Origin: an uncultured Hyphomicrobiales bacterium
Lineage (GTDB): Bacteria > Pseudomonadota > Alphaproteobacteria > Rhizobiales > Devosiaceae
Assembly: GCA_903842455.1 (NCBI GenBank)
Contig: CAIMLX010000174.1
Location: 1-64,000 of the forward strand
Direction of reading: 5' to 3'
DNA length: 64,000 nucleotides
Positions 3,922 through 63,715 of the stretch are shown here, in pieces; the first letter of the stretch is position 1; the number at the start of each line of letters is the position of its first letter. The position numbers were made by a program, and so were the translations under genes. The notes beneath the pieces are model-generated. The model ran no database searches, was not told the origin of the DNA, and saw only the letters and a program-made list of their open reading frames with translations.

Positions 3922-5785
3922 AAACAACCGCAACATGATCATCGCGATCGTGCTCAGCGTCGTGGTGCTGTTCGGCTGGCAGTTCTTCATCGCAGGCCCG
4001 CAACTGGAACAGGCGCAACGCCGCGCCGAACTGGCGGCGCAGCAGGCAGCGCAGGATACGAGCCTCGCCGCGCCGGCCGCCACCACCGCCGAGGGCGCGG
4101 CACCAGCCGCAGAGGGCACCACGCCGGCAGCTGCGGTCAATTCCACCCAGCCCGGCGTCTACGCGACGCGCGACGAGGCGCTGGCCGCCAGCCCCCGCGT
4201 GGCGATCGACACGGTGGCGCTCTCGGGCTCCATCAGCCTCACCGGCGGCCGCGTCGATGACCTGAAGCTCAAGCGCTACAACGAAACCGTCCAGCCCAAT
4301 TCGCCGATCATCACGCTGCTCAGCCCCGCTGGCGCGCCGGGCGGCTACTACATCGAAAGCGGCTGGGAGCCGCCGCAGGGCGTGACGCTCGCCCGTCCCG
4401 ACTCCAACACCGTGTGGACGCTCGAGGGCGACAACCAGACCCTCACCACGGCCGCGCCCGTGACCCTCTGCTGGGACAACGGCGCTGGACTCGTGTTCCG
4501 CCGCACCATCGCGGTGGATGACAATTACCTCTTCACCGTCACCCAGTCGGTCGCGAACGCCTCGGGCGGCGACGTGATGCTCTACCCCTACTCGCGCATC
4601 GTGCGCCAGGGCACGCCGACCACCGCGAATTTCTTCATCCAGCACGAAGGCCCGCTGGGCGTCCTCGGCTCGAACAACCTCGTGTCCAAGAAGTACTCCG
4701 ACATGGTCAACGAGGGCCGCGTCGAATGGACCTCGACGACCGGCGGGTGGGTCGGCATCGGCGACAAGTACTGGGCGACCGCGATCATCTCGCCGCCCGC
4801 CTCGCCGCTCACCGCCCGCTTCGTGTCGGCCAAGCAGAACAGCATTGACGTCTACCAGACCAACTTCGTCGAAACGACGCCGGTGGTGGTGCCCAATGGC
4901 GGCTCGGCCGAGAACAAGGGCTTCATCTTTGCCGGCGCCAAGCAGACCTACATCATCGACAACTACGACAAGAGCTACGGTTTCGACCGGCTCGAACTGC
5001 TGATCGACTGGGGCTGGCTGCACTTCATCACCCGGCCGATGTTCGACCTGATCCAGTTCCTCTACGGCATCCTGGGCAATTTCGGCCTCGCTATCCTCGC
5101 GGTGACGGTGCTGGTGAAGGCGATCTTCTTTCCGCTTGCCAACCGCTCCTACGCCTCGATGGCGGCGATGCGACGCGTGCAGCCCGAGATGAAGTCGATC
5201 CAGGAGCGCTTCAAGGACGACCGCACGCAGCAGCAGACGGCGATGATGGAGCTCTACAAGAAAGAGAAGATCAATCCGCTGTCCGGCTGCTGGCCCGTCC
5301 TGATCCAGGTGCCGGTGTTCTTCGCGCTCTATACCGTCATCTTCATCTCGCTCGAGATGCGGCATGCGCCGTTCTTCGGCTGGATCGTCGACCTCGCGGC
5401 GCCTGATCCGACCAACATTTTCACCCTGTTCGGGCTGATCCCGTGGAACCCGGTTGCCGTTCCGGTCATCGGTGGCCTGCTGCACCTCGGCGTCTGGCCG
5501 CTGATCATGGGCGTGACCATGTGGGTGCAGATGAAGCTGAACCCGCCGCCGACCGACCCGACCCAGGCGATGATCTTCAACTACCTGCCGATCGTGTTCA
5601 CCTTCATGCTCGGCTCGTTCCCGGCCGGCCTCGTCATCTACTGGGCCTGGAACAACTTCCTGTCGGTCACCCAGCAGTACTTCATCATGAAGCGCCACGG
5701 CGCCGAAGTGAACCTGCTCGAAAACATCACGGCCAGCTTCAAGCGCAAGCCGGCCACCAAGCCCGCCGACGGCAAGGCGAGCTAG
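3911..5785 (+). CDS. yidC: Membrane protein insertase YidC
   Basis: A 624-residue YidC/Oxa1-family insertase of the inner membrane, acting alone and with SecYEG. The first transmembrane segment (MIIAIVLSVVVLFGWQFF) is followed by an Ala/Thr-rich linker and the large periplasmic beta-domain. Five C-terminal hydrophobic segments begin near the FLYGILGNFGLAILAVT stretch and include the conserved NPLSGCWPVLIQVPVFFALY region. The ATG at 3911 gives the typical MQSENNRN N-terminus; an upstream in-frame ATG at 3875 lies inside rnpA. The lysine-rich tail fits ribosome contact. It overlaps rnpA by 11 nt, suggesting coupled translation. Confidence 0.96.
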   Translation: MQSENNRNMIIAIVLSVVVLFGWQFFIAGPQLEQAQRRAELAAQQAAQDTSLAAPAATTAEGAAPAAEGTTPAAAVNSTQPGVYATRDEALAASPRVAIDTVALSGSISLTGGRVDDLKLKRYNETVQPNSPIITLLSPAGAPGGYYIESGWEPPQGVTLARPDSNTVWTLEGDNQTLTTAAPVTLCWDNGAGLVFRRTIAVDDNYLFTVTQSVANASGGDVMLYPYSRIVRQGTPTTANFFIQHEGPLGVLGSNNLVSKKYSDMVNEGRVEWTSTTGGWVGIGDKYWATAIISPPASPLTARFVSAKQNSIDVYQTNFVETTPVVVPNGGSAENKGFIFAGAKQTYIIDNYDKSYGFDRLELLIDWGWLHFITRPMFDLIQFLYGILGNFGLAILAVTVLVKAIFFPLANRSYASMAAMRRVQPEMKSIQERFKDDRTQQQTAMMELYKKEKINPLSGCWPVLIQVPVFFALYTVIFISLEMRHAPFFGWIVDLAAPDPTNIFTLFGLIPWNPVAVPVIGGLLHLGVWPLIMGVTMWVQMKLNPPPTDPTQAMIFNYLPIVFTFMLGSFPAGLVIYWAWNNFLSVTQQYFIMKRHGAEVNLLENITASFKRKPATKPADGKAS

Positions 5786-5788
5786 GCC

Positions 5789-6493
5789 ATGACGGTGCTC
5801 GACACCGTCTGCCTGGTTTCGAGCCCGCGCACCGGCGCAAGCCATCTGCTGAGCCTCTGCGAGAACCTCGCGGAGGCTCAGTCGTTTCCGCAGCTGTTCG
5901 AACCGATCGCGGAGCGCCTCTCGCCCGAAGCAGCGATCGCCGCCGCCATCGAAGCGACTCGTGCCGCGAGGCGGCGGGTGATGCTGTTCCGGCTGTGGCA
6001 CGACATGCTGTCGCTCGATGAGGCCATCGCGGTGGCGGACCGCCGGGGCGTGCGGCTGGTGCTGGTGATGCGCCGGCAGATCGACGCCTATATCAGCTGG
6101 TGCAAGGCGATCCAGCTCGGCCAATGGCACGGCATCGACACCTCCTCGCTGCAGCTGGCCGGCTCGATCGACGATTTCGTCGCCTTCATGGATGCGCAGG
6201 AGACCTGGTTCGCGCACTGGCATACCTGGCTCACCCGCCGCTACCTGCCGGTTCCGGTGCTCCGCTACGAAACCGACATCGACCAGCCGCCCGAATGGGC
6301 ACTCAGGCGCCTCTCGGCGGCCGCCGCGCAGGTCGGCATCACGCTGCGGGTCCCCGCCACTCTCAGCGCCACCGGCCTCGTCAAGCAGGACCGGGTGAAG
6401 GCTGTCGCCGACAAGCTGAGCAACTGGCCGCAATTCTCGCGCGAGCTGACGCGGCGGGGGCTGGAGAAGCGGGCGTTCGGTTATCCGCTCTAG
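5789..6493 (+). CDS. Stf0-like sulfotransferase
   Basis: A 234-residue cytoplasmic protein resembling Stf0-type sulfotransferases, which move sulfate from PAPS to a sugar or other acceptor. The N-terminal SSPRTGASHLLSL matches the 5'-phosphosulfate-binding loop, and VMRRQIDAYISW fits the 3'-phosphate-binding Arg/Ser motif. The acceptor is unknown; the family includes trehalose 2-sulfotransferase. It starts 3 nt after yidC and ends shortly before engB, so it is co-transcribed with housekeeping genes. In many relatives engB follows yidC without such a gene, so this looks like a lineage-specific insertion in the operon. Confidence 0.7.
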   Translation: MTVLDTVCLVSSPRTGASHLLSLCENLAEAQSFPQLFEPIAERLSPEAAIAAAIEATRAARRRVMLFRLWHDMLSLDEAIAVADRRGVRLVLVMRRQIDAYISWCKAIQLGQWHGIDTSSLQLAGSIDDFVAFMDAQETWFAHWHTWLTRRYLPVPVLRYETDIDQPPEWALRRLSAAAAQVGITLRVPATLSATGLVKQDRVKAVADKLSNWPQFSRELTRRGLEKRAFGYPL

Positions 6494-6525
6494 CCTTTCG
6501 TCGCGCCCTCGCCTAATACGGCGAA

Positions 6526-7173
6526 ATGACCGACGCTCCAAAGTTCAATGAAGCCGAACTCGAAGCCGGACGCCTGCTGTTTGCGCGGCCGTTCTCCTTC
6601 ATCAAGGGTGCCGTGCGCCTCGGCGACCTGCCGGAGCCCGACCGGATGGAAGTCGCATTCGCCGGCCGCTCCAATGTCGGCAAGTCGAGCCTCATCAACG
6701 CGCTGACCGGCACCACCGGGCTCGCCCGCACCTCGAACACGCCGGGACGGACGCAGGAGCTCAACATCTTCGAGAGCCAGAACGCGCCGCTCCGCATCGT
6801 CGACATGCCCGGCTACGGTTTCGCCAAGGCACCCGAGGCTAAGGTGAAGCAGTGGACCCGGCTGATCCACCAGTACCTCACCGGCCGCGCCAACCTGCGC
6901 CGCGTCTACGTGCTGATCGATGGCCGCCACGGCCCGAACGCCAACGACAAGTCCGTGATGAACGAGCTCGACAAGGCCGCCGTCAGCTACCAGGTGGTCG
7001 TCACCAAGGCCGACAAGCCTACCCACAAGGAACTCGCCGACGCCATCACCAAGACCCGCGAGGCGATCGCCAAGCGCCCCGCCGCCCACCCCGACCTGAT
7101 CGTCACCTCATCGGAGACCAAGTTCGGGATGGAATCGCTGCGCGCCGAAATCCAGCGGCTGCTGGAGCACTGA
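6526..7173 (+). CDS. engB: Ribosome biogenesis GTP-binding protein EngB/YihA/YsxC
   Basis: A 215-residue TrmE-Era-EngA-EngB GTPase that acts in 50S subunit maturation and is often essential. The G1 loop is GRSNVGKSSLIN, the G2/switch region carries TSNTPGRTQ, G3 is DMPGYGFAKA, and G4 is TKADK; the later SSETKFG fits G5. Length is normal. Its position after yidC follows the alphaproteobacterial order, apart from the sulfotransferase gene in between. Confidence 0.95.
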   Translation: MTDAPKFNEAELEAGRLLFARPFSFIKGAVRLGDLPEPDRMEVAFAGRSNVGKSSLINALTGTTGLARTSNTPGRTQELNIFESQNAPLRIVDMPGYGFAKAPEAKVKQWTRLIHQYLTGRANLRRVYVLIDGRHGPNANDKSVMNELDKAAVSYQVVVTKADKPTHKELADAITKTREAIAKRPAAHPDLIVTSSETKFGMESLRAEIQRLLEH

Positions 7174-52987: not shown

Positions 52988-53818
52988 ATGTCGCGGCCGC
53001 TGCTTGTCATCGATGGGGATTCGTTTGCGCACCGGGCCTATCACGGGGTGCCCAAGACAGTGCGGCGGGCCGGGAACAAGGCCGGCAACGCCATCGTCGG
53101 GTTTGCCAACTACCTGATCAAGCTCATCACCGAGGAGCAGCCGCGTGCCGTCGTCGTCGGCTGGGATACGCTCGAGGTGCCGAACTGGCGGGCGCTGGAG
53201 CTCGAGGGTTATCAGGGCGGACGGGTGTTCGAGGACGAGATCGTCGAACAGTTGAGCGTGCTGCCGGAGTTCGTCGCGGCGTTCGGCTGCGTGGTCGGCA
53301 AGGGCGCGGGCTTCGAGGCCGACGATTTCCTCTCGACCGCCGTGGCGCGCGAGGAAGCGCGCGGCGGTGCGGTGCTGGTGGCGACGGGCGACCGCGACGC
53401 GTTCCAGCTTGCCTCGGAGCGGACGACGATCCTGCAGCCGGTGAAGGCCGGACAGATCGCGCGGATCGATCCCGCCGGGGTGCGCGAGCGCTACGAGGTG
53501 GAGCCCGCCCAGGTGCCGGACTTCATCGCGCTGCGCGGCGACCCATCCGACAAGATCCCCGGCGCCAGGGGTGTCGGCGAAAAGACCGCGGCGAGCCTCC
53601 TGAAGCGCTACCCTGACCTCGAAGCCATGCTGGCCGACAACCGCTTCCCCGGCCAGGAAGACAACCTCCGGCTCTACAAGCGCATCGCCACCATGGTGAC
53701 GAACGCCCCGCTCGGAGACGTGCCCGACGCCGAGCCGACCTGGAGCAAGGCGGCCGAGTTGGCGCGGACGTGGGAGCTCAAGGGATTGAGCGAACGGCTG
53801 GCGGCGCTGGCGGGCTAG
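52988..53818 (+). CDS. 5'-3' exonuclease (PolA N-terminal/FEN-like)
   Basis: A 276-residue stand-alone homologue of the 5'-3' nuclease domain of DNA polymerase I. The PIN-like domain has VIDGDSFAHRAYHG, ADDFLSTAVARE and ATGDRDAFQL with clustered Asp ligands. The helix-3-turn-helix is SDKIPGARGVGEKTAASLLKRYPDLEAML. It may remove RNA primers or flaps. The ATG at 52988 gives the conserved MSRPLLVIDGD start. Its stop overlaps the convergent DUF5615 gene by 4 nt. Confidence 0.88.
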   Translation: MSRPLLVIDGDSFAHRAYHGVPKTVRRAGNKAGNAIVGFANYLIKLITEEQPRAVVVGWDTLEVPNWRALELEGYQGGRVFEDEIVEQLSVLPEFVAAFGCVVGKGAGFEADDFLSTAVAREEARGGAVLVATGDRDAFQLASERTTILQPVKAGQIARIDPAGVRERYEVEPAQVPDFIALRGDPSDKIPGARGVGEKTAASLLKRYPDLEAMLADNRFPGQEDNLRLYKRIATMVTNAPLGDVPDAEPTWSKAAELARTWELKGLSERLAALAG

Positions 53819-54195
53819 TCGGAGGCCGTGTTGCCAATTGGCAGACGACGGACACGCATGCGAGAACCCTTGAGGCTCAGGACGGCGCCAGCGGCCAGCT
53901 CGTGCTCGACCTGTCGCATGGCACTGGCTACCAGCCTGGCAAAGTCTTCGCTGAATCTGTCCTGCCGTCGAAGGTGAATCACACTGGGGGTAACTCCACT
54001 TGTGGCAGCCAGGATGGTGCTGAAATCGATGTCTCGCGTCAGAACGACGTGCCCGTGCGCAGAGGCGTAGCGCATTATTTCCTCGTCCGACGACGAGGCT
54101 TCGCCGAGTGTGGACCAGTGGACTGCAACAATGCCCTGTTCGCGAAGGGCATCGACCCATCGCGTGGACATGTTCATATCCACCAGAACTTTCAT
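53815..54195 (-). CDS. DUF5615-type PIN-like toxin candidate
   Basis: A 126-residue protein of the DUF5615 Mut7-C/PIN-like group. The signature VLVDMNMSTRW at the start, VHWSTLGEASSSDEEIMRYASAHGHVVLTRDIDFSTILA in the middle and the acidic residues match the PIN-like fold. These proteins usually pair with DUF433 and are predicted RNase toxins. It starts inside the DUF433 stop (ATGA). The C-terminal extension GSRMRVRRLPIG is strand-like. Confidence 0.78.
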   Translation of the reverse strand: MKVLVDMNMSTRWVDALREQGIVAVHWSTLGEASSSDEEIMRYASAHGHVVLTRDIDFSTILAATSGVTPSVIHLRRQDRFSEDFARLVASAMRQVEHELAAGAVLSLKGSRMRVRRLPIGNTASD

Positions 54196-54422
54196 GTGCC
54201 GGTCAGGTCGAGCTCACGCTCCTGCGCCAGCCAGGCGCCGTAGCGAATAGCCTGCAGAATGTCCTCACGTTCAAGGTAGGGGAAATCGGCCAGGATTTCT
54301 TCGATCGTTGCGCCGGAGCCGAGTTCTCCCAGGATCATGCCGACAGTCACCCGCATGCCGCGGATGCAGGCCTTGCCGCCCATCACGGCGGGGTTGTGGG
54401 TAATGCGATCGAGTTGGGCCAT
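54192..54422 (-). CDS. DUF433 antitoxin candidate
   Basis: A 76-residue DUF433 protein with the family pattern RITHNPAVMGGKACIRGMRVTVGMILGEL and EEILADFPYLEREDILQAIRYGAWLAQE, a small helix-turn-helix-like fold. It is predicted to be the antitoxin and operon repressor for the DUF5615 partner. The ATG at 54422 has AAGGAG 8 nt upstream; the longer frame to 54506 is not family-like. Confidence 0.82.
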   Translation of the reverse strand: MAQLDRITHNPAVMGGKACIRGMRVTVGMILGELGSGATIEEILADFPYLEREDILQAIRYGAWLAQERELDLTGT

Positions 54423-54483
54423 GCGGAACTCCTTGGCCTTAACATAGCAACTGGCCGGTCCGGACGCAAAGTGCCGCTCCTCC

Positions 54484-55944
54484 CTAGCCCAGCGGATCGG
54501 GATCAAGCGGCCACATCGGGCGGGGAATGAGCTTGAACGGGATGCTCTGCCAGTCTGGCGGGCAGGCGCCGGGGGTGGCGACGTAGAGCTGGCCGCGGAC
54601 CAGTGGCGCGAAGATGTCGGTGTGGCGGAACAGGTTCTTGAGGCCGATCACCTGCTTGCCCTCGAGCACGATGCCGTGGCGGGTGAACATGGTGGGGGAG
54701 AACACCCCGGTGCGGCGGGTGTTGAGCAGCACCTCGATGCCGTTGACCCGCACCACCGCCACGTCGCCGATCGGCACACGCTCGTTGCTCAACTGGTCCT
54801 GCCAGGTGTTCGGCGCGAGGTGCAGCACTTCGGCGTCGACGTCCATCGAGGGGCCCGAGTAGGGCTCGTACTTGCCGCCGATGCGCAGTTTCAGTTTCGC
54901 GCCAACGCCCACGGACATGCAAATGCCGACCGCCAGCGGGTCCCAGAGCGGGCCGTAGACGGCGTTGGTGATGCCGGCCTCGATCAGGGCGCGCAGCATG
55001 TGCGTGGTGTCGCCGGGGGCGCCGCCGCCGGTCTGGTCGGAGGTGTCGGCGAGCAGCAGCGGCTTGTCGCCGCCACGCTGCGCTTCGGTGATGGCCTCGG
55101 CGAGCGAGGTGAAGGGCAGCGTCGCCTCGGCGCGGACGGCGTAGAAGCGGCGGCCGAAATCTTCGGCTGCCCGCGCAGCGATGGCGGGGTCGCGATCGGC
55201 GACGGCCAGCATCTTCGCGCCGGCATGCGGGACATCGGCCCACGGGAAGCCGTGATTCAGCGACAGCGACAGGATGCCGTCCTTGCCTTCGGCGGCGAAC
55301 ATGTCGGCCACGAAGCCGGGCATTGGGCCCTTTCGCGTGGTGGGGAACAGGCCCATCGTCTTGCAGTCGAACAGCGCCATCACCGGCTCGATCTCGCCCG
55401 CGAGGGTGCGCCGCATGAGGGCGAAGAGGTCGTCAGCGCGCTCGGCGTAGTCGATATGCGGGTAGGCCTTGTAGAAGACGATGAGGTCGGTGACGTCGAG
55501 CAGCCGATGATCGATATGGGCGTGGAGGTCGAGCTCCAGCCCAATGCGCGTGCCTTTGCCCACTTGCGCCCGCATGCGGGTCACGAAATCGGCTTCGCAG
55601 TCATCGTAACCATCGGCGACCATGGCGCCGTGGAGGAACATCAGCACCGCATCGACCGGGCCGGCCGCCGCGAGGTCGGCAAGAATGCGGTCGCGCATCG
55701 TCTCGTAGGCCGAGCGGACGGTCGGGCCGGCGGGCTCGGCGAAGGCGTGCAGCGACTGGATCACCTCCCAGCCCAGGTCGGTGGCGTGGGTGAGCCAGCG
55801 CTGCGCCGGCATGGCCCACGGGCTGCCGGGCACGCTGCCGACATCGCCCTCGTTCCAGAAGCCGCGCTGGAAACTGTCGAGGCCGGTCGGAAACGACGCG
55901 AAGGTATTGGTTTCGGTGCCGAGCGTGGCGATGAACAGGCGCAT
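54484..55944 (-). CDS. M81-family metallopeptidase (MlrC-like)
   Basis: A 486-residue M81/microcystinase C-type peptidase. The N-terminal DUF1485 domain has TLGTETNTFASFPTGLDSF, LFLHGAMVADGYDD, ELDLHAHIDHRLLDVTD and KAYPHIDYAERADDLF with predicted zinc ligands. The C-terminal MlrC domain has LLLADTSDQTGGGAPGDTTHMLRALIEAG. Real substrates in non-degraders are unknown, probably small peptides. The start is the ATG at 55944. The gene diverges from an aminotransferase gene 100 bp away, which suggests joint use in amine or peptide catabolism. Confidence 0.9.
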   Translation of the reverse strand: MRLFIATLGTETNTFASFPTGLDSFQRGFWNEGDVGSVPGSPWAMPAQRWLTHATDLGWEVIQSLHAFAEPAGPTVRSAYETMRDRILADLAAAGPVDAVLMFLHGAMVADGYDDCEADFVTRMRAQVGKGTRIGLELDLHAHIDHRLLDVTDLIVFYKAYPHIDYAERADDLFALMRRTLAGEIEPVMALFDCKTMGLFPTTRKGPMPGFVADMFAAEGKDGILSLSLNHGFPWADVPHAGAKMLAVADRDPAIAARAAEDFGRRFYAVRAEATLPFTSLAEAITEAQRGGDKPLLLADTSDQTGGGAPGDTTHMLRALIEAGITNAVYGPLWDPLAVGICMSVGVGAKLKLRIGGKYEPYSGPSMDVDAEVLHLAPNTWQDQLSNERVPIGDVAVVRVNGIEVLLNTRRTGVFSPTMFTRHGIVLEGKQVIGLKNLFRHTDIFAPLVRGQLYVATPGACPPDWQSIPFKLIPRPMWPLDPDPLG

Positions 55945-57354: not shown

Positions 57355-60300
57355 CTAGAAGTCGAGCTTCGGCTTGGGCTGGGTGGCCTCGGCGGCGGCA
57401 ATCCTGTCGATCAGCCTCTGGTTCTCGAGGGCGGTATATCGGGTGTCGATCAGCAGCACCTGGGTGTAGAGCTGACGGACAAAGGCGCCACAGTTCCGCG
57501 AGCGGTACGCTTCGGGGATGCGGATCAGATCGGGCCAGACTGGCGTGCAATCGTAGCCATCACCGTTGAAGAACGGGGCCATAGATGGCTCGCTCGGCCA
57601 GACGCGGTAGTTGCTGTCGCCATCGCCGTAGTAGGTAGGGCCGTACTTGTCGACCAGACCGTTGGTCAGTGCCTCGAGCATCTCCCTGCTCACTTCGCGG
57701 GCCACGGCGCCAACGACGTCGCCGGACTGGGTGGCCTTGAAGACCACGATGCGATCGTTCTGCCCATCTTCCTGCGGCACGTCATAGCCGAAAGCCACCT
57801 GCAGCACGGTGAGGTCGACCACGCCGCATTCGGCGCGGGCGAAGTCGTCGATGTAGGAGTCGCGGATGCGCTGCTCCGCGGCGTCATCGCCGATCTCGGC
57901 CAGTTCGGCGTTCATATCAGCCTCGAGCCGCGCACAGGCCGGACCGCTGCTTTCGGTGCTGACGCTGAGGGGAACTGCGTTGCGGCCCTCAAAGCGGGCC
58001 TCGAGCAGCTTTTGTGCCTCCTCGAGAGGCATGCCGAGAGTTATGCCAAGGATATCGAAGCGCGATTCCGGCAATCCCGGGTCCACCGGGCCGGCGGTGG
58101 GCACCACCCTGGGCGTCCAGCCGGGATAGGCTATGTCGGCAAGGTGCATGCCCAGGTCGGCGATCGGATAGAGGCTGCGCTCAAGAGGGTCGACCAACGC
58201 CTCGACCTCATCGTTGTCCACTCTGAGCGCCTGCAGCCGGTAGGTTTCGATCACCACCAGCGTGCCGGCGGGTGCCGTGATCCTGGCGTCGCCGAAAATG
58301 GCCGGATCGATGTTGACCGACTGCAGCTGGCGCAGTCGCTCACGGAACGCCCGTGCGTCGGCCTCCGGCATCGGAAGCTCGGCAGGGGCATCGATGGCGC
58401 CGACCAGTGTCATCCGGTCGGCGCCCGAGCCTCCGAGCGCCAGTGGCCTGCGCTCCGACAGGCCGACCGGGAAAGCCGATCGCTGGGCACTGAACTCGAC
58501 GACGCTGGCATAGCGCAGAACCGATATCTCGGCCGGCAACACGGGCAGCAGCGCATCGAGCGCCGGCCGGTGGGCAGCAACGAAGCGCTTGCGCGTGTCC
58601 TCGCGGGTAAACTCGTCGACGCCTTCCCAGCTGGTGTAGTTCTTCTCGAAGTAGTCGCCCTTTTCGAAGGCCTCCCGTGCCCCCGGCGCCAGGTAGGGGC
58701 CAACGTCGAACCCAAGGTCGACAGCCATAGGCAAGGTGAGGCTGCGCTGCTCGAACAACCCGGGTTGAGCGGCCTCGGCAAACAGGGCGGTTACGGCGCG
58801 CAACCCAGCGTAGCCGGGCATGTCGTCGGGGACGAAAAGCGGGCGGCCGTCCAGCACCGGGATGTTGAACCGCGCGACCCACGGCTGGTCCGAGCCAGCC
58901 ACGCTGACCCCGCGCTGCGGCGTGTTGTCGACTTCCGGCCGCACGACAAGGCCGGCGACATCGAGCGGCATGATTTCTTCGCTCAGATCGGTGCTGCGGA
59001 ACAAGCCGGACCGTTCGGCGACAAAGCGGATGACGTGGCGCTCGCCTGATTTCTCGGCCACCAGCTGGCCGAAGGTCGCCAGCACGACCACCGGTCTGTT
59101 GCCGGAGGAGACGCGCGCCATCATGCGCTCGGCGTCCGCTTCGTTCATCGGCAGGCTTTCGGGCAAGCCGGAGTAGATCTCCTCCGGCTGCAGGCCCGGC
59201 ATCTGTGACGGAACGAGGACGGCCCGCTGCGAGCCCTCATACTCGATCGGGAAGCTCGCGCTGGCGAAATCGTACGAACCGAGGATAGCACGCTTGAGCA
59301 GGACGACCGGGATCGGGAAGGCCGGCGCGCCGGCAATGAGTTCGGGAACGATCTGGTCGCTGAAAGCGGCGGCAGCACGCCGGCGGTCGAACTCGTTGCG
59401 AAGGGTGTAGGAGTTGCCGTCACGGTCGCCGAAAACCCGCAGCCGCTGGGTCGGGCGCAGCAAGTCGATGACCATCTGGTTGTCGAGACCGTTGCTGGCA
59501 ATCCCCGGGTCGAGGCCGATGGCGGCGAGGTTGAAATAGCGCGGCATCGGACTGTCATAGCGGTCGCCGTTCACCAGTCGCAGCGACGCCTGGTCAGCCG
59601 CGAGCATCACGCGGCCATCGAGCACCGGCAGGTTCATCATCCTCGCGATGCGCACGGGATCGGAGGAAGCGGCGGCGGCGGGAGCGGTATCGACCAGCAC
59701 GGCGATCTGTTCGTAGCCGGGCTGCTTTTCCTTGTTGCGGCCGGGAACGGTGACGGCAACCAGCCGATCAAGGGTTATTGTGACGGGCAGGTCGCCCGGC
59801 CCCCCTCCCGCACCCGAGGCGTTGGCGTCGGTGCCGAAGCCCGACAGGGTGAGGTAGGCGACAAGCCTCACCTGGCTGTCGCGGGACGTCGCCTTCAGCC
59901 GGTCGAGCAGCCCGCTCGCTGCTGCTTCGTCGGCAAGCGGCAGGCTGTAGGTCTCGGGCAGGCCAGGAACGATGCCGACCACCTGGGTTTTGAGCCAGGC
60001 ATTCGAGTACTCCAGCTTCCGGTCGCTGAGCAGGCCGTAGGGCTCGTCGATGTCCATGCCGGTTTCAGGATCGAACCTGCCAAGGCTCGTGTCATCCTCG
60101 AAGCGCACCTTCAGGCTGAGCGCGGCGGGATCGGGCGCAAACGCCTTTGCCTCGGCCAGCACTGCCGCACGGAACTGCCCCAGGATGGCCGGGCGATCGA
60201 TCTCGTTGGCCGCATCATAGCGCGCCGCCACTGCACTGACCTCCTCGCTTTCGGCATAGCGTTTGTCCGCGACCAGCCAGTTGAATGCCGCAGCATCGGA

Positions 60301-61101
60301 CGCAAGCAGTTCGGGCTGGGCAGCGAGGCTGACGAGGGCGAACTGGCGGGCAATGGTATCGGAAGCCAGGTAGGCATCGTCGGCGAAAGTGGCTGTGCGC
60401 GGCACGCCGGTAACCGCCAGCAGCAGGCCGACATCGATGCGACCACTCCCGGCACCAGGGTTGTCGGCGAGGAACCCGGCAACCGCTGCGCGGCTGCGCT
60501 TGCCGAGGCGCCCATCCGGCTTGCCGGCGTCGTAGCCTGCTGCGTTCAGGGCCTGCTGCAGTTCGAAAATCTCGTCGCGGGTGAGCGCGCGAGCCATCTC
60601 GGCGTCATCGCTCCCGTCCAGTTCTGCTTCGGGCACGAACGCCGACCCTCCGCCGCCCTTCACGCCGGAGACGGCACCCTTGAAGCGTTCGGGCGTGGCG
60701 GCAGCGTATTTGAGGAAGCAGACCTTGGCCCTGGCATTATAGGTGAAGGCGCGGCACTGGCCGTCGGCCTCGCAGAGCCGGACGCAGTCGTCGAGGCGGA
60801 TGCCCTTGAGGGCCGGATCGTCCATGCCGGAGCGGTAGTCGTTCTGCGGCAGGTCGGTATCGTATAGCAGGCCGATGCTGTCGGACTGGGCGTACTCCTC
60901 CGGATCGGGCTCCACCGGACGAGGAGTGACTGCCGGCTTTTCGGCGTCGATCGTCCGCGCCTCGGCGTCCTCCCGGGCCTTTTCGAGGGCAAGGCCGATG
61001 ATCTTGCCGAACATGTCTCCCTGGGCCAGTGCAGATGGCGCGAACATGCCAATGCACAGTGCCAGAACAACCAGACACCTTGCCGAAACCCAGACCCGCA
61101 T
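57355..61101 (-). CDS. Large secreted protein with PAN/Apple and peptidoglycan-binding-like domains and long internal repeats
   Basis: A 1248-residue exported protein. Residues 1-26 form a signal peptide (VSARCLVVLALCIGMFAPSALAQ). A PAN/Apple-like domain (87-149) has four cysteines (CVRLCEADGQCRAFTYN...KVCFLKY). A peptidoglycan-binding-like helical domain lies near 175-233. The remaining ~850 residues show similar blocks near 386, 649 and 908 (SLPLADEAAASGLLDRL, SLPMNEADAERMMARV, ELPMPEADARAFRERL), and NLPVLDGR/NIPVLDGR at 490 and 746, a period of about 260. A C-terminal domain begins near LPESRFDILGITLGMPLEEAQ and holds most other cysteines. No function is known. The ATG at 61101 is set by the signal peptide. 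Confidence 0.75.
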   Translation of the reverse strand: MRVWVSARCLVVLALCIGMFAPSALAQGDMFGKIIGLALEKAREDAEARTIDAEKPAVTPRPVEPDPEEYAQSDSIGLLYDTDLPQNDYRSGMDDPALKGIRLDDCVRLCEADGQCRAFTYNARAKVCFLKYAAATPERFKGAVSGVKGGGGSAFVPEAELDGSDDAEMARALTRDEIFELQQALNAAGYDAGKPDGRLGKRSRAAVAGFLADNPGAGSGRIDVGLLLAVTGVPRTATFADDAYLASDTIARQFALVSLAAQPELLASDAAAFNWLVADKRYAESEEVSAVAARYDAANEIDRPAILGQFRAAVLAEAKAFAPDPAALSLKVRFEDDTSLGRFDPETGMDIDEPYGLLSDRKLEYSNAWLKTQVVGIVPGLPETYSLPLADEAAASGLLDRLKATSRDSQVRLVAYLTLSGFGTDANASGAGGGPGDLPVTITLDRLVAVTVPGRNKEKQPGYEQIAVLVDTAPAAAASSDPVRIARMMNLPVLDGRVMLAADQASLRLVNGDRYDSPMPRYFNLAAIGLDPGIASNGLDNQMVIDLLRPTQRLRVFGDRDGNSYTLRNEFDRRRAAAAFSDQIVPELIAGAPAFPIPVVLLKRAILGSYDFASASFPIEYEGSQRAVLVPSQMPGLQPEEIYSGLPESLPMNEADAERMMARVSSGNRPVVVLATFGQLVAEKSGERHVIRFVAERSGLFRSTDLSEEIMPLDVAGLVVRPEVDNTPQRGVSVAGSDQPWVARFNIPVLDGRPLFVPDDMPGYAGLRAVTALFAEAAQPGLFEQRSLTLPMAVDLGFDVGPYLAPGAREAFEKGDYFEKNYTSWEGVDEFTREDTRKRFVAAHRPALDALLPVLPAEISVLRYASVVEFSAQRSAFPVGLSERRPLALGGSGADRMTLVGAIDAPAELPMPEADARAFRERLRQLQSVNIDPAIFGDARITAPAGTLVVIETYRLQALRVDNDEVEALVDPLERSLYPIADLGMHLADIAYPGWTPRVVPTAGPVDPGLPESRFDILGITLGMPLEEAQKLLEARFEGRNAVPLSVSTESSGPACARLEADMNAELAEIGDDAAEQRIRDSYIDDFARAECGVVDLTVLQVAFGYDVPQEDGQNDRIVVFKATQSGDVVGAVAREVSREMLEALTNGLVDKYGPTYYGDGDSNYRVWPSEPSMAPFFNGDGYDCTPVWPDLIRIPEAYRSRNCGAFVRQLYTQVLLIDTRYTALENQRLIDRIAAAEATQPKPKLDF

Positions 61102-61194
61102 TATTGCACTCGAACTTGCCGCTTCACCAACAGGACAAGTGTGCACGCTGGAACGACGGTGGCAATACGGCAGCCGCCCTATGGTTGAAGTCGT

Positions 61195-62568
61195 TCAGGG
61201 CCGCGGCGCGTCGCGGAGGGCGCGCAGGAATTCGTCGGCCCAGGCGTGGATGTTGTATCGCTCGATGTCGGCGCGCAGCTTGACCCAGCGCTCCTTGCGC
61301 TCTTCGAGCGGCATCTTCAGCGCAACATCGATGGCATGCGCAGTTTCGTCGGCATCGTAGGGATTGACCAGCAGTGCGTCGGGCAGGATTTCGGCCGCCC
61401 CCGCGAAGATCGAAAGCACCAGCACGCCGGGATTGTCGGGATCCTGGCTGGCGACGAACTCGTGGGCGACGAGGTTCATGCCATCGCGCAGCGGGGTGAC
61501 AAGGCCGACCCGGGCGGCGCGGTAGAGCCCGGCCAGCGTCGACTGGCCATAGGCGCGCTTCACGTAGTTCAGCGGCTGCCAGTCGATCTCGGCGAAGCGG
61601 CCCATGACGCGGCCGCACTGGTAGTCGAGGCTGCCGGTGATCTCCTGGTATTGCTGGATGGTGTCGCGCGACACCGGAGCGACCTGCAGGAAACTGACCT
61701 TGCGGCGATACTCTGGATAGTCGGCGAGCAGCCGCTCATAGGCTTCGAGGCGCTGCGGCAGCCCCTTGGTGTAGTCGAGCCGGTCGACACCGAGGATCAG
61801 CTGCCGATCGGCGATCGACTTGTTGAAGGTGACCATGGCCTTGCGGGTCGCCGGTAGCTCGGCCATGCGCGCAAACGCCTCGGGGTCCGAGCCGATGGGG
61901 AAGACACCGGCGTTGACGCCGGTGACCGGGACCAGCGGGCCGGAGCTGCGGCGCAGGCGCACAAACTCGACGGGCGAGGCGAAGTCTTCCAGCGCCGCCA
62001 CATCGCGCTTCGCCTGCAGGCCGACGAGGTCGTAGGCGGTGAGGGAACCGATGAGGTGGCGATGGCTCGGGATGGCGGACAGTCCCTCGGGCGTGGGGAA
62101 CGGGATGTGGAGGAAGAAGCCGATCCGGTTCGTCACCCCGCGATCCCTCAGCAACTGCCCGAGCGGAATCAGGTGATAGTCGTGCACCCAGATCAGGTCG
62201 TCGGGCCTCAGCAAAGGCAGCAGCGCATCGGCGAACTGCTCGTTCACCCGCATGTAGCCCTCGTAGAAGGCGGTGTTGAACCGGGCGAGCTCGGGGCGCA
62301 TGTGGAAGGTCGGCCACAGCACGCTGTTGGCATAGCCAGCGTAGTAGGCGGCGTGATCGGCCTTGTTGAGGTCGATATGGACGATCTCGTTGCCGCCGAC
62401 ATCGAGGTGACGCGGCTTCCCCGGCTGTTCGGCGAAGTCGCCGCTCCAGCCGACCCAGATGCCGCCGAGCTGCTTGAGCACGCCATCGAGCGCGGCAGCA
62501 AGGCCACCGGCCGCCACCTTGCCGGGCTTGGGCGTACGGTTGGAGACGACGACCAGACGTTCCGTCAC
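61195..62568 (-). CDS. otsA: Trehalose-6-phosphate synthase
   Basis: A 457-residue GT20 glycosyltransferase that joins UDP-glucose and glucose 6-phosphate. Motifs are [43 protein letters not shown], and [14 protein letters not shown] near the C-terminus. It starts at GTG 62568, whose bases overlap the otsB stop (GTGA), so otsA is translated after otsB. Trehalose protects against osmotic and desiccation stress. Confidence 0.95.
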
Positions 62569-63350
62569 GAGAGGAACTCCCGGCTGCGGATGACGGCATC
62601 GAGCACGGCGGGCACACTGCTGGTGCCGGGAATGCGATAGAGCGCGGCCGTGTCGCCCGGCCCGACCTTGATGCCGGTGCCGCCAAGCTGCTGGGCGGCG
62701 GCGAAGCCATCCTCGTCGGTGATGTCGTCGCCGATGAACAGCGGCGTGCGGCCTTCAAACGGCGTTTCCTGCATGTAGCCGCGCACGGCGGCGCCCTTGT
62801 CGGCACCGGCGGCGCGGGCCTCGATCACCATCTTGCCGGCAACGATGGAAAAACCGGAGTGGACACCGACCGCGGCGTTGACCCGCTCGAAGCACTCGGC
62901 CGCACGTTCGGGGGCGAGACGATAGTGCACGGCCACCGCCGAGGGCTTGCGCTCGACGATGATGCGGTCGTCGGCGCCGAAGGCGAGTTCGAGCTCGGTG
63001 GCGAGTTCCGGCACCACCTGCATCGCCGCCTCGTTGAGCACTACGACCCGGCCGTCGCGGCTGCGGCGCATGTTGCCGTGCTCGGCTGCGACCGGGAGGT
63101 GCAACGGCGCGAGGAACCGGTCGATATCGGCCATGGCGCGGCCGGTGACCACCGCCACGGCACCATCGAGGGCGCTGTGGAGGGTCTGCAGCCTTGCGAT
63201 GACGACAGGGTTGACTGACACGGCGTCAGGGGTGGGAGCAATCTCGGCCAGGACGCCATCGAAATCGAGGAACAGCGCGATCGGCCCTGAGCGAAAGAGC
63301 AGATCAGCCAGCGAACCGGCTGCCACTGATGCGTTCGTGGGTGATGTCAT
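62565..63350 (-). CDS. otsB: Trehalose-6-phosphate phosphatase
   Basis: A 261-residue HAD phosphatase that completes trehalose synthesis. Motif I is LFLDFDGVLAEIAPTPD, motif II VVTGRAM, motif III near ADKGAAV, and motif IV GDDITDEDGFAAA. The ATG at 63350 gives MTSPTNASV; the longer frame to 63500 runs into the next gene. It is the first gene of the otsB-otsA pair. Confidence 0.94.
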   Translation of the reverse strand: MTSPTNASVAAGSLADLLFRSGPIALFLDFDGVLAEIAPTPDAVSVNPVVIARLQTLHSALDGAVAVVTGRAMADIDRFLAPLHLPVAAEHGNMRRSRDGRVVVLNEAAMQVVPELATELELAFGADDRIIVERKPSAVAVHYRLAPERAAECFERVNAAVGVHSGFSIVAGKMVIEARAAGADKGAAVRGYMQETPFEGRTPLFIGDDITDEDGFAAAQQLGGTGIKVGPGDTAALYRIPGTSSVPAVLDAVIRSREFLS

Positions 63351-63409
63351 GTGGACTATACGTACGAGCGGCCGGAAGGTTCCACGGCTGCGTGCTTTTT
63401 GCCGGGGGC

Positions 63410-63715
63410 TTAGCCAGCGCGGCGGTAGAGCCGCACGGGAGACGGCGTGCGGGCAATCACCCGCTTGGCCTCGAGATCGAGTTGCACCGCCTTCACCCAC
63501 CAGCCCGCCTTTTCACCGCCGGGAAACAGGTCGGCAGGCAGCAGCGGCTTGGCCGCAGCGATGACGGCTTCCACCGTCATGCCGGGCGGTGCGGTGGGCA
63601 ACACGGCGAGCACAGCCTCGCGCATGGCGGCGTACTTCGCCCCATCGACGCGATAGAGCCTGCCGGGCTGGCCGACATTTTCGATTTCGATACGACCGTC
63701 CGGCTTAAGCGCCAT
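63410..63715 (-). CDS. DUF6958-like small protein
   Basis: A 101-residue protein with IEIENVGQPGRLYRVDGAKYAAMREAVLAVLP, ADLFPGGEKAGWWVKAVQLDLEAKRVI and a final RLYRRAG. The pattern resembles DUF6958 proteins, a small family without a known role; I am moderately sure. Its start overlaps the stop of the aldehyde dehydrogenase gene by 11 nt. Confidence 0.6.
   Translation of the reverse strand: MALKPDGRIEIENVGQPGRLYRVDGAKYAAMREAVLAVLPTAPPGMTVEAVIAAAKPLLPADLFPGGEKAGWWVKAVQLDLEAKRVIARTPSPVRLYRRAG

Follow-up and report, generated by a model that had tools for sequence, protein, structure and literature searches.

The window analysed here is a stretch of 64,000 nucleotides (contig CAIMLX010000174.1, assembly GCA_903842455.1, positions 1 to 64,000 of the forward strand) from an uncultured Hyphomicrobiales bacterium of the Devosiaceae. 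It contains a gene for a protein of 1248 residues in which a secreted-looking head is followed by three copies of a module, a C-terminal domain (CTD) and a short hydrophilic tail (Table 1). The initial annotation, made from the letters alone, had described a protein of 1248 residues without giving the strand of its frame; this frame is real and lies on the minus strand, and its codon-position GC content (0.70/0.47/0.82) fits a real gene of a GC-rich genome. An alternative start, GTG at 61146, is located 15 codons upstream of the ATG.

Both PAN matches in the head pass the Pfam cut-offs (28.8 bits each, with cut-offs of 21.4 for PAN_1 and 27 for PAN_4), and so does the peptidoglycan-binding (PG-binding) match (27.3 bits, cut-off 23). 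Together with the signal-like start, these matches support the view of the initial annotation that this is a secreted protein of envelope architecture with a PAN and PG-binding head. Among the nine proteins of this kind scanned at E up to 1, the 1248-residue protein included, PG_binding_1 was found in seven and PAN_1 in five.

Table 1. Features of the gene for the 1248-residue protein; positions are those of the window, iE is the independent E-value.
Feature	Residues	Position	Strand	Basis and details
Whole gene	1248 aa	57355..61101	minus	ATG at 61101, stop codon 57355-57357
Signal-peptide-like stretch	1-26	61024..61101	minus	Read by eye from sequence; ends APSALA before QG
PAN domain	82-137	60691..60858	minus	PAN_1 1.1e-6, PAN_4 1.3e-6; Cys 106, 110, 116, 128
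PG-binding-like domain	170-212	60466..60594	minus	PG_binding_1 4.1e-6
Module R1	220-478	59668..60444	minus	Held-out profile iE 1.8e-21, envelope 225-478
Module R2	484-728	58918..59652	minus	Held-out profile iE 1e-28, envelope 487-728; NLPVLDGR at 59611-59634
Module R3	743-990	58132..58875	minus	Held-out profile iE 1.2e-13, envelope 744-982; NIPVLDGR at 58843-58866
C-terminal domain (CTD)	1010-1231	57409..58074	minus	Held-out profile iE 5.9e-12; Cys 1185 and 1204
Hydrophilic linker and tail	1232-1248	57358..57408	minus	Tail pattern counts; ends ...QPKPKLDF-COOH, last three residues 57358-57366

Three diverged copies of one module

The initial annotation had noticed a period close to 260 residues in the body of the protein, with similar blocks near residues 386, 649 and 908 and the octapeptides NLPVLDGR and NIPVLDGR at 490 and 746. 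The octapeptides lie exactly there, the blocks are present as SLPL, SLPM and ELPM, and the period is confirmed for all three copies, of about 245 aa each, by a held-out profile that was built from other proteins only, with the 1248-residue protein excluded. The best iE for this profile among 50 shuffles of the 1248-residue protein was 12, so that the self-similarity is significant and not due to chance; this control matters because the relatives had been gathered by their likeness to the 1248-residue protein. The same held-out test found two to three copies in each of the other eight proteins (weakest iE 2.7e-5), and an iterated profile yielded 23 module copies in nine of the ten proteins given, the tenth, a PAN/PG-binding protein adjoining one relative, having none. 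Comparison of the copies with each other by the Smith-Waterman algorithm is uneven: the R2-R3 score of 96 was reached by none of 1000 shuffles and the R1-R2 score of 57 by two, whereas the R1-R3 score of 39 was reached by 347 and is, alone, no better than chance. The repeat is therefore settled through the relatives, and at the level of sequence profiles the protein is shown to contain three diverged copies of one module.

Structure prediction of one repeat, a check that the initial annotation had proposed, gave, with AlphaFold, a confident model for R2 (17 copies in the alignment, mean pLDDT, the predicted local distance difference test, 86.3, predicted TM-score 0.84), with a helical first half followed by b1-b2-b3-helix-b4-b5, a strand order that suggests a fold like that of oligonucleotide/oligosaccharide-binding (OB) proteins. 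In the PDB, Foldseek returned 573 matches for this model at E up to 10 and none at E 0.001, the best having E 0.05; among the 50 listed, 31 are what we take to be OB-fold proteins (CusF/SilF, Cdc13, Stn1, SSB and others), all weak. The top VIA row is the C-terminal part of the envelope lipoprotein NlpE (Z 3.1, root-mean-square deviation (rmsd) 7.2 over 67 residues), too weak for kinship, and the search of viral models gave 746 matches at E up to 10, none of them at E 0.001.

No match to Pfam or NCBIfam was found for residues 240-1248, which agrees with the suggestion of the initial annotation that the protein is undescribed; the module core, however, appears to be distantly related to DUF4852 (PF16144). 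In the 1248-residue protein itself Pfam gives no DUF4852 match at E up to 10, and at E up to 1 weak matches occurred in three of the nine scanned proteins, the two inspected lying in the module core with 22.0 and 13.4 bits (cut-off 22.8). The module profile nevertheless retrieves from the class three single-module proteins that pass the DUF4852 cut-off of Pfam (1.7e-10 to 1.3e-15). In profile-profile comparison, the 23-copy family profile matches these three members with E 4.8e-8 and probability 94.8, and the three copies of the 1248-residue protein, which do not reveal the relationship by themselves, give E 0.0045 and probability 7.8. The cores align through the NEFxR helix, the strand LGxYDF...FP and the LPM..EAxxxxxRL helix, but the DUF4852 model has 116 positions, whereas the module has about 245 residues and is found here in three copies with a PAN/PG-binding head and a CTD. 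Since the family profile matches DUF4852 and the 1248-residue protein falls below the Pfam rule, we describe the module, by its sequence profile, as a distant relative of DUF4852 and not as a member. The single weak PF16144 match in the genome of the window (14.2 bits, in a Lon protease-like frame) was taken as chance. No papers on DUF4852 or PF16144 were found among open-licence PMC papers.

Relatives, history of the copies and genomic setting

A scan of contigs with the whole 1248-residue protein as a single query found no relatives, and a whole-protein search of the genus gave mostly PAN heads on frames of the size of alpha-2-macroglobulin (A2M), which were rejected as relatives of the body. 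The initial annotation mentions neither the relatives nor the CTD and its tail. Relatives were found in other genomes with a profile of the repeat, a check that this annotation had proposed, and with the body of the protein alone. The module profile matched 4 of 136 genomes in the family (own genome and a decayed copy counted), 14 of 397 in the order and 10 of 376 in the class (own genome counted in both). With the body (residues 233-1248) as query, 6 of 121 genomes of the family gave matches at E 0.1, namely the protein itself, two good relatives, the decayed copy and two marginal cases, and 7 of 397 genomes of the order at E 0.01, itself counted. The distribution is thus sporadic. The six relatives found among 209 stretches belong to Devosia riboflavina, Devosia rhodophyticola, Chthonobacter albigriseus, a Rhodobacteraceae metagenome-assembled genome, Shinella granuli and Roseitalea sp. 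The decayed copy (genome G070, locus L029, about 5300-7100) occupies the same place as the intact gene of D. riboflavina and consists of fragments in several frames, with about 2.1 kb of the middle missing and flanks that are 91-94% identical; the gene is therefore dispensable there.

The architecture of the relatives varies. In a two-module relative (L042, 8327-12421) a WD40 propeller replaces the CTD, and the tail is missing. Between the third module and the CTD, Devosia and several other relatives contain, as judged by eye, a further stretch with the motif RW..E...FF...W..R (L027, residues about 1040-1298, and similarly L028, L039, L044 and L084), which is absent from the 1248-residue protein.

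In a tree of the 23 module copies, which has long branches and a bootstrap that had not yet converged, the R1-type copies of five proteins form one group (support 91/89), as do, with weak support, the R2-type copies (38/77); the R3 group needs two changes. Taken together, the three position groups need 2 changes, the least possible number, compared with a mean of 7.5 after shuffling. Each module position thus seems to have long retained a sequence of its own, and the grouping of first- and second-position copies by position across species suggests that the positions probably have tasks of their own and are not interchangeable spacers. R3 of the 1248-residue protein has a long branch placed among the R2-type copies. 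This agrees with the strong likeness of R2 and R3 and suggests that R3 arose in this lineage as a duplicate of R2; in the Devosia relatives the third module belongs to a different type.

The trehalose genes otsA and otsB are the immediate upstream neighbours of the gene and share its strand (61195-63500, minus strand, overlapping by 4 bases; Glyco_transf_20 and Trehalose_PPase in Pfam). The gene starts 93 bases after otsA and co-transcription with otsBA is possible. A site scan found no promoter-like site, and the two terminator-like sites are the number expected by chance. Flanks were listed for eight loci (poorly for L088, L081 and L084) and no constant neighbour was seen by eye; eight neighbours, drawn from five of these loci, were scanned with Pfam. 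Elsewhere in the window (53815-54506, minus strand), overlapping frames encode a DUF433 and DUF5615/PIN-like pair (5.2e-23 and 2e-24), presumably the usual make-up of a toxin-antitoxin-like pair.

The C-terminal domain and its tail

The CTD, which together with the tail takes up about the last 240 residues, is recovered by its own held-out profile, the best of 100 shuffles giving 8.4 as compared to 5.9e-12. It shows DI.G..LGM...EA, then KYG, then a Cys pair that most alignment rows share. In its AlphaFold model (pLDDT 69.6), the tail (model residues 234-239) falls below pLDDT 50. The structure search found no PDB match at E 0.001. The best VIA rows (RhsI1, Z 5.9; 4ifa, Z 5.7, rmsd 4.8 over 112 residues; 4h0a, Z 5.1, rmsd 5.0 over 124) are all below the trust level. 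The folds of 4ifa and 4h0a are, we assume, BamE/BLIP or CAP-associated N-domain. A PDB sequence search with the nine-protein profile returned 24 sequences at E up to 1, mostly through the PAN and PG-binding parts; the matches outside these parts, 9evr (0.16) and 4v7h (0.58), are weak and were taken as chance. For R2 and CTD alike, weak structure matches are no proof of a new fold.

The most surprising part of the analysis is a pattern at the very end of the CTD proteins, which the initial annotation did not contain. Following a linker of variable length rich in Ala, Glu, Lys and Pro, the tail ends in [ILVFP]-[KRDEASTQN]-[FL]-stop in all 25 CTD proteins with an intact end that were known at that stage, compared with 3 of 172 other predicted genes. 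These 25 do not include the decayed L029 and the broken-looking L122; L087-L089, being identical with the genes L027, L028 and L039, were counted once, and the near-copies L120 and L121 were both counted. The background consists of frames of at least 200 aa that pass the codon-GC rule in the window and 24 loci, after removal of 16 CTD-bearing ones; 169 of the 172 differ in their last 60 residues. None of the six module proteins that lack the CTD (L042, L086, L117, L123, L124, L125) has the pattern. The last residue is hydrophobic in 25 of the 25 and the third-last in 21 (Pro in the other four), the second-last is charged in 21, and further up hydrophobic residues are present at -5, -7 and -9 in only 7, 3 and 2 proteins, respectively. 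When the pattern was fixed beforehand and the order was then searched with the CTD profile (matches in 19 of 397 genomes), the tail was found in five of nine new CTD proteins (p 4e-6 relative to background).

The CTD also occurs outside module proteins. Stand-alone secreted-looking CTD proteins have 269-283 aa in the family and 236-368 aa in the order; nine were recorded (L119, L120, L121, L139, L140, L141, L148, L142 and L143), seven of them with the tail pattern, and Pfam found no match in L119 and L120. Two CTD copies in a row are encoded in L137, L138 and L041.

The 1248-residue protein itself ends in LDF, so that at its free C-terminus the last and the third-last residues are both hydrophobic, as in ligands of PDZ domains. 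According to an excerpt of PMC8545111, the PDZ domains of DegS and AlgW read positions 0 and -2 of C-termini. By this chemistry the CTD tail resembles the ligands of periplasmic PDZ proteases (YxF of outer-membrane proteins, WVF of MucE), the likeness residing in the last and third-last residues; it differs from them in being mostly aliphatic at -3 and mostly Lys, Asp, Glu or Arg at -2 and in following a soluble domain. Among open-licence PMC papers, a search on PDZ domains and C-terminal motifs in Alphaproteobacteria brought up one paper, on BamB.

A possible role in the cell envelope

An envelope location of the 1248-residue protein is likely, and we tentatively propose, with a probability of about 0.42, that it acts in the periplasm as a scaffold or receptor tethered to peptidoglycan and uses its tail to dock a partner. 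Under this proposal, the protein would be exported by the Sec route to the cell envelope and held at the cell wall by its PAN/PG-binding head; each module, with its helices and OB-like barrel, would provide a surface to which a glycan or protein ligand could bind, and the CTD would expose the flexible tail to a partner that has a pocket for C-termini. The most plausible candidate for this pocket is a PDZ domain in a protease or assembly factor of the periplasm.

Several observations weigh against this proposal. Localisation is read from the sequence, and the signal stretch by eye, and the tail partner is hypothetical. The 25 CTD proteins are homologous and the pattern was drawn up after seeing them. 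Four of the nine new CTD proteins lack the pattern, ending in RAG (L138), PLN (L147), TGG (L142) and SRF (L143); in the PLN-ending protein the CTD is far from the protein end, and the remaining three have no such explanation. The last of the two overlapping frames of L122 ends in TSF, also outside the pattern. It follows from these cases that the tail, as far as the sequences tell, accompanies the CTD without being obligatory. The CTD model has middling confidence, and the OB-like call for the module is drawn from strand order and from weak matches (Foldseek E 0.05, VIA Z 3.1); moreover, 10 of the 50 PDB rows listed for R2 are, by our assignment, kinesins. Finally, the R2 group of the tree is weakly supported, with the bootstrap unsettled.

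The initial annotation had considered adhesion besides an envelope role. As a surface adhesin, the array would project from the cell and stick to surfaces or other cells via the PAN domain and the modules. Binding of proteins or sugars is known for PAN domains elsewhere, and the protein is secreted-looking and modular, with one to three module copies in each of its kind. All the same, we consider this improbable: the frequent PG_binding_1 domain points to the cell wall, the module is predicted to be made of helices and an OB-like barrel, the copies are old and diverged rather than near-identical, and Pfam finds in the 1248-residue protein neither an adhesin domain nor an outer-membrane anchor or autotransporter domain.

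Similarly doubtful is the possibility that the protein is an envelope sentinel, whose hidden tail would be freed by stress or loss of a ligand and would activate a PDZ protease in the way that the tails of MucE and outer-membrane proteins activate AlgW and DegS. The tail chemistry fits PDZ positions 0 and -2, and the tail travels with the CTD, including the stand-alone CTD proteins of 269-368 aa. However, the low model confidence of the tail is what a disordered, always exposed end would show, and CTD tails mostly have I, L or V at -3 and terminate in F or L, unlike the known AlgW/DegS activators, for which an excerpt of PMC8545111 gives aromatic residues at 0 and -2.

The head invites yet another explanation, that the protein is an accessory of the A2M protease trap, as its PAN head shares 45% identity over 77 residues with the one on the A2M encoded in the same genome (G000:C32), which carries A2M domains and also has a signal-like start. 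The body of the latter consists of a macroglobulin array and includes bait and TED domains, whereas Pfam detects no macroglobulin, bait or TED domain in the 1248-residue protein. Of 19 genomes sampled from the genus, 18 contain frames of 1594-1926 aa that begin with a head of this type (only that of the own genome was scanned and is A2M), but the module is in one. Furthermore, the nearest heads are those of the relatives, with 57% identity over 94 residues in D. riboflavina, so that a function alongside A2M is very hard to credit. Heads of this type are also found on a PAN/PG-binding protein adjoining one relative (42% over 71 residues) and on a caspase-like protein encoded by a sister species (48% identity over 81 residues; G009, L031 2796-6593, minus strand), which has the same head pair and 1265 aa but ends in Peptidase_C14, with no module match in its genome. 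It looks like, judging from these heads, PAN with or without PG-binding serves as an address label on various envelope bodies in this group. No papers on PAN with peptidoglycan-binding in Hyphomicrobiales, on bacterial alpha-2-macroglobulin with PAN or on Devosia PAN proteins were found among open-licence PMC papers.

Least probable, and already disfavoured, is the reading of the tail as a beta-signal that would let the beta-barrel assembly machinery insert the protein on the outer-membrane route. The terminal F or L and the hydrophobic positions -1 and -3 would fit, but that signal is, according to an excerpt of PMC3582582, an amphipathic strand of about 10 residues, the hydrophobic residues needed further up are scarce in the CTD tails, and Pfam finds no beta-barrel domain in the protein.

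Beyond the peptidoglycan-tethered scaffold or receptor that we favour for the 1248-residue protein, the CTD and its tail might represent an undescribed docking system of alphaproteobacterial envelope proteins, which would be used alone or behind DUF4852-like arrays, with [ILV/P]-charged-[F/L]-COOH as a tag for a dedicated periplasmic receptor (PDZ or other), and with the helix-plus-OB arrays sensing or holding a cell-wall ligand. This broader scheme is speculative, and we regard it as unlikely in its entirety.

The relationships described here unite large hypothetical proteins (about 860-1860 aa), which come from many families of the Alphaproteobacteria, in a single family characterised by a defined module, and DUF4852-type proteins gain a predicted structure and a wider context. 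If the tag has a receptor, it would constitute a new recognition signal in the bacterial envelope.

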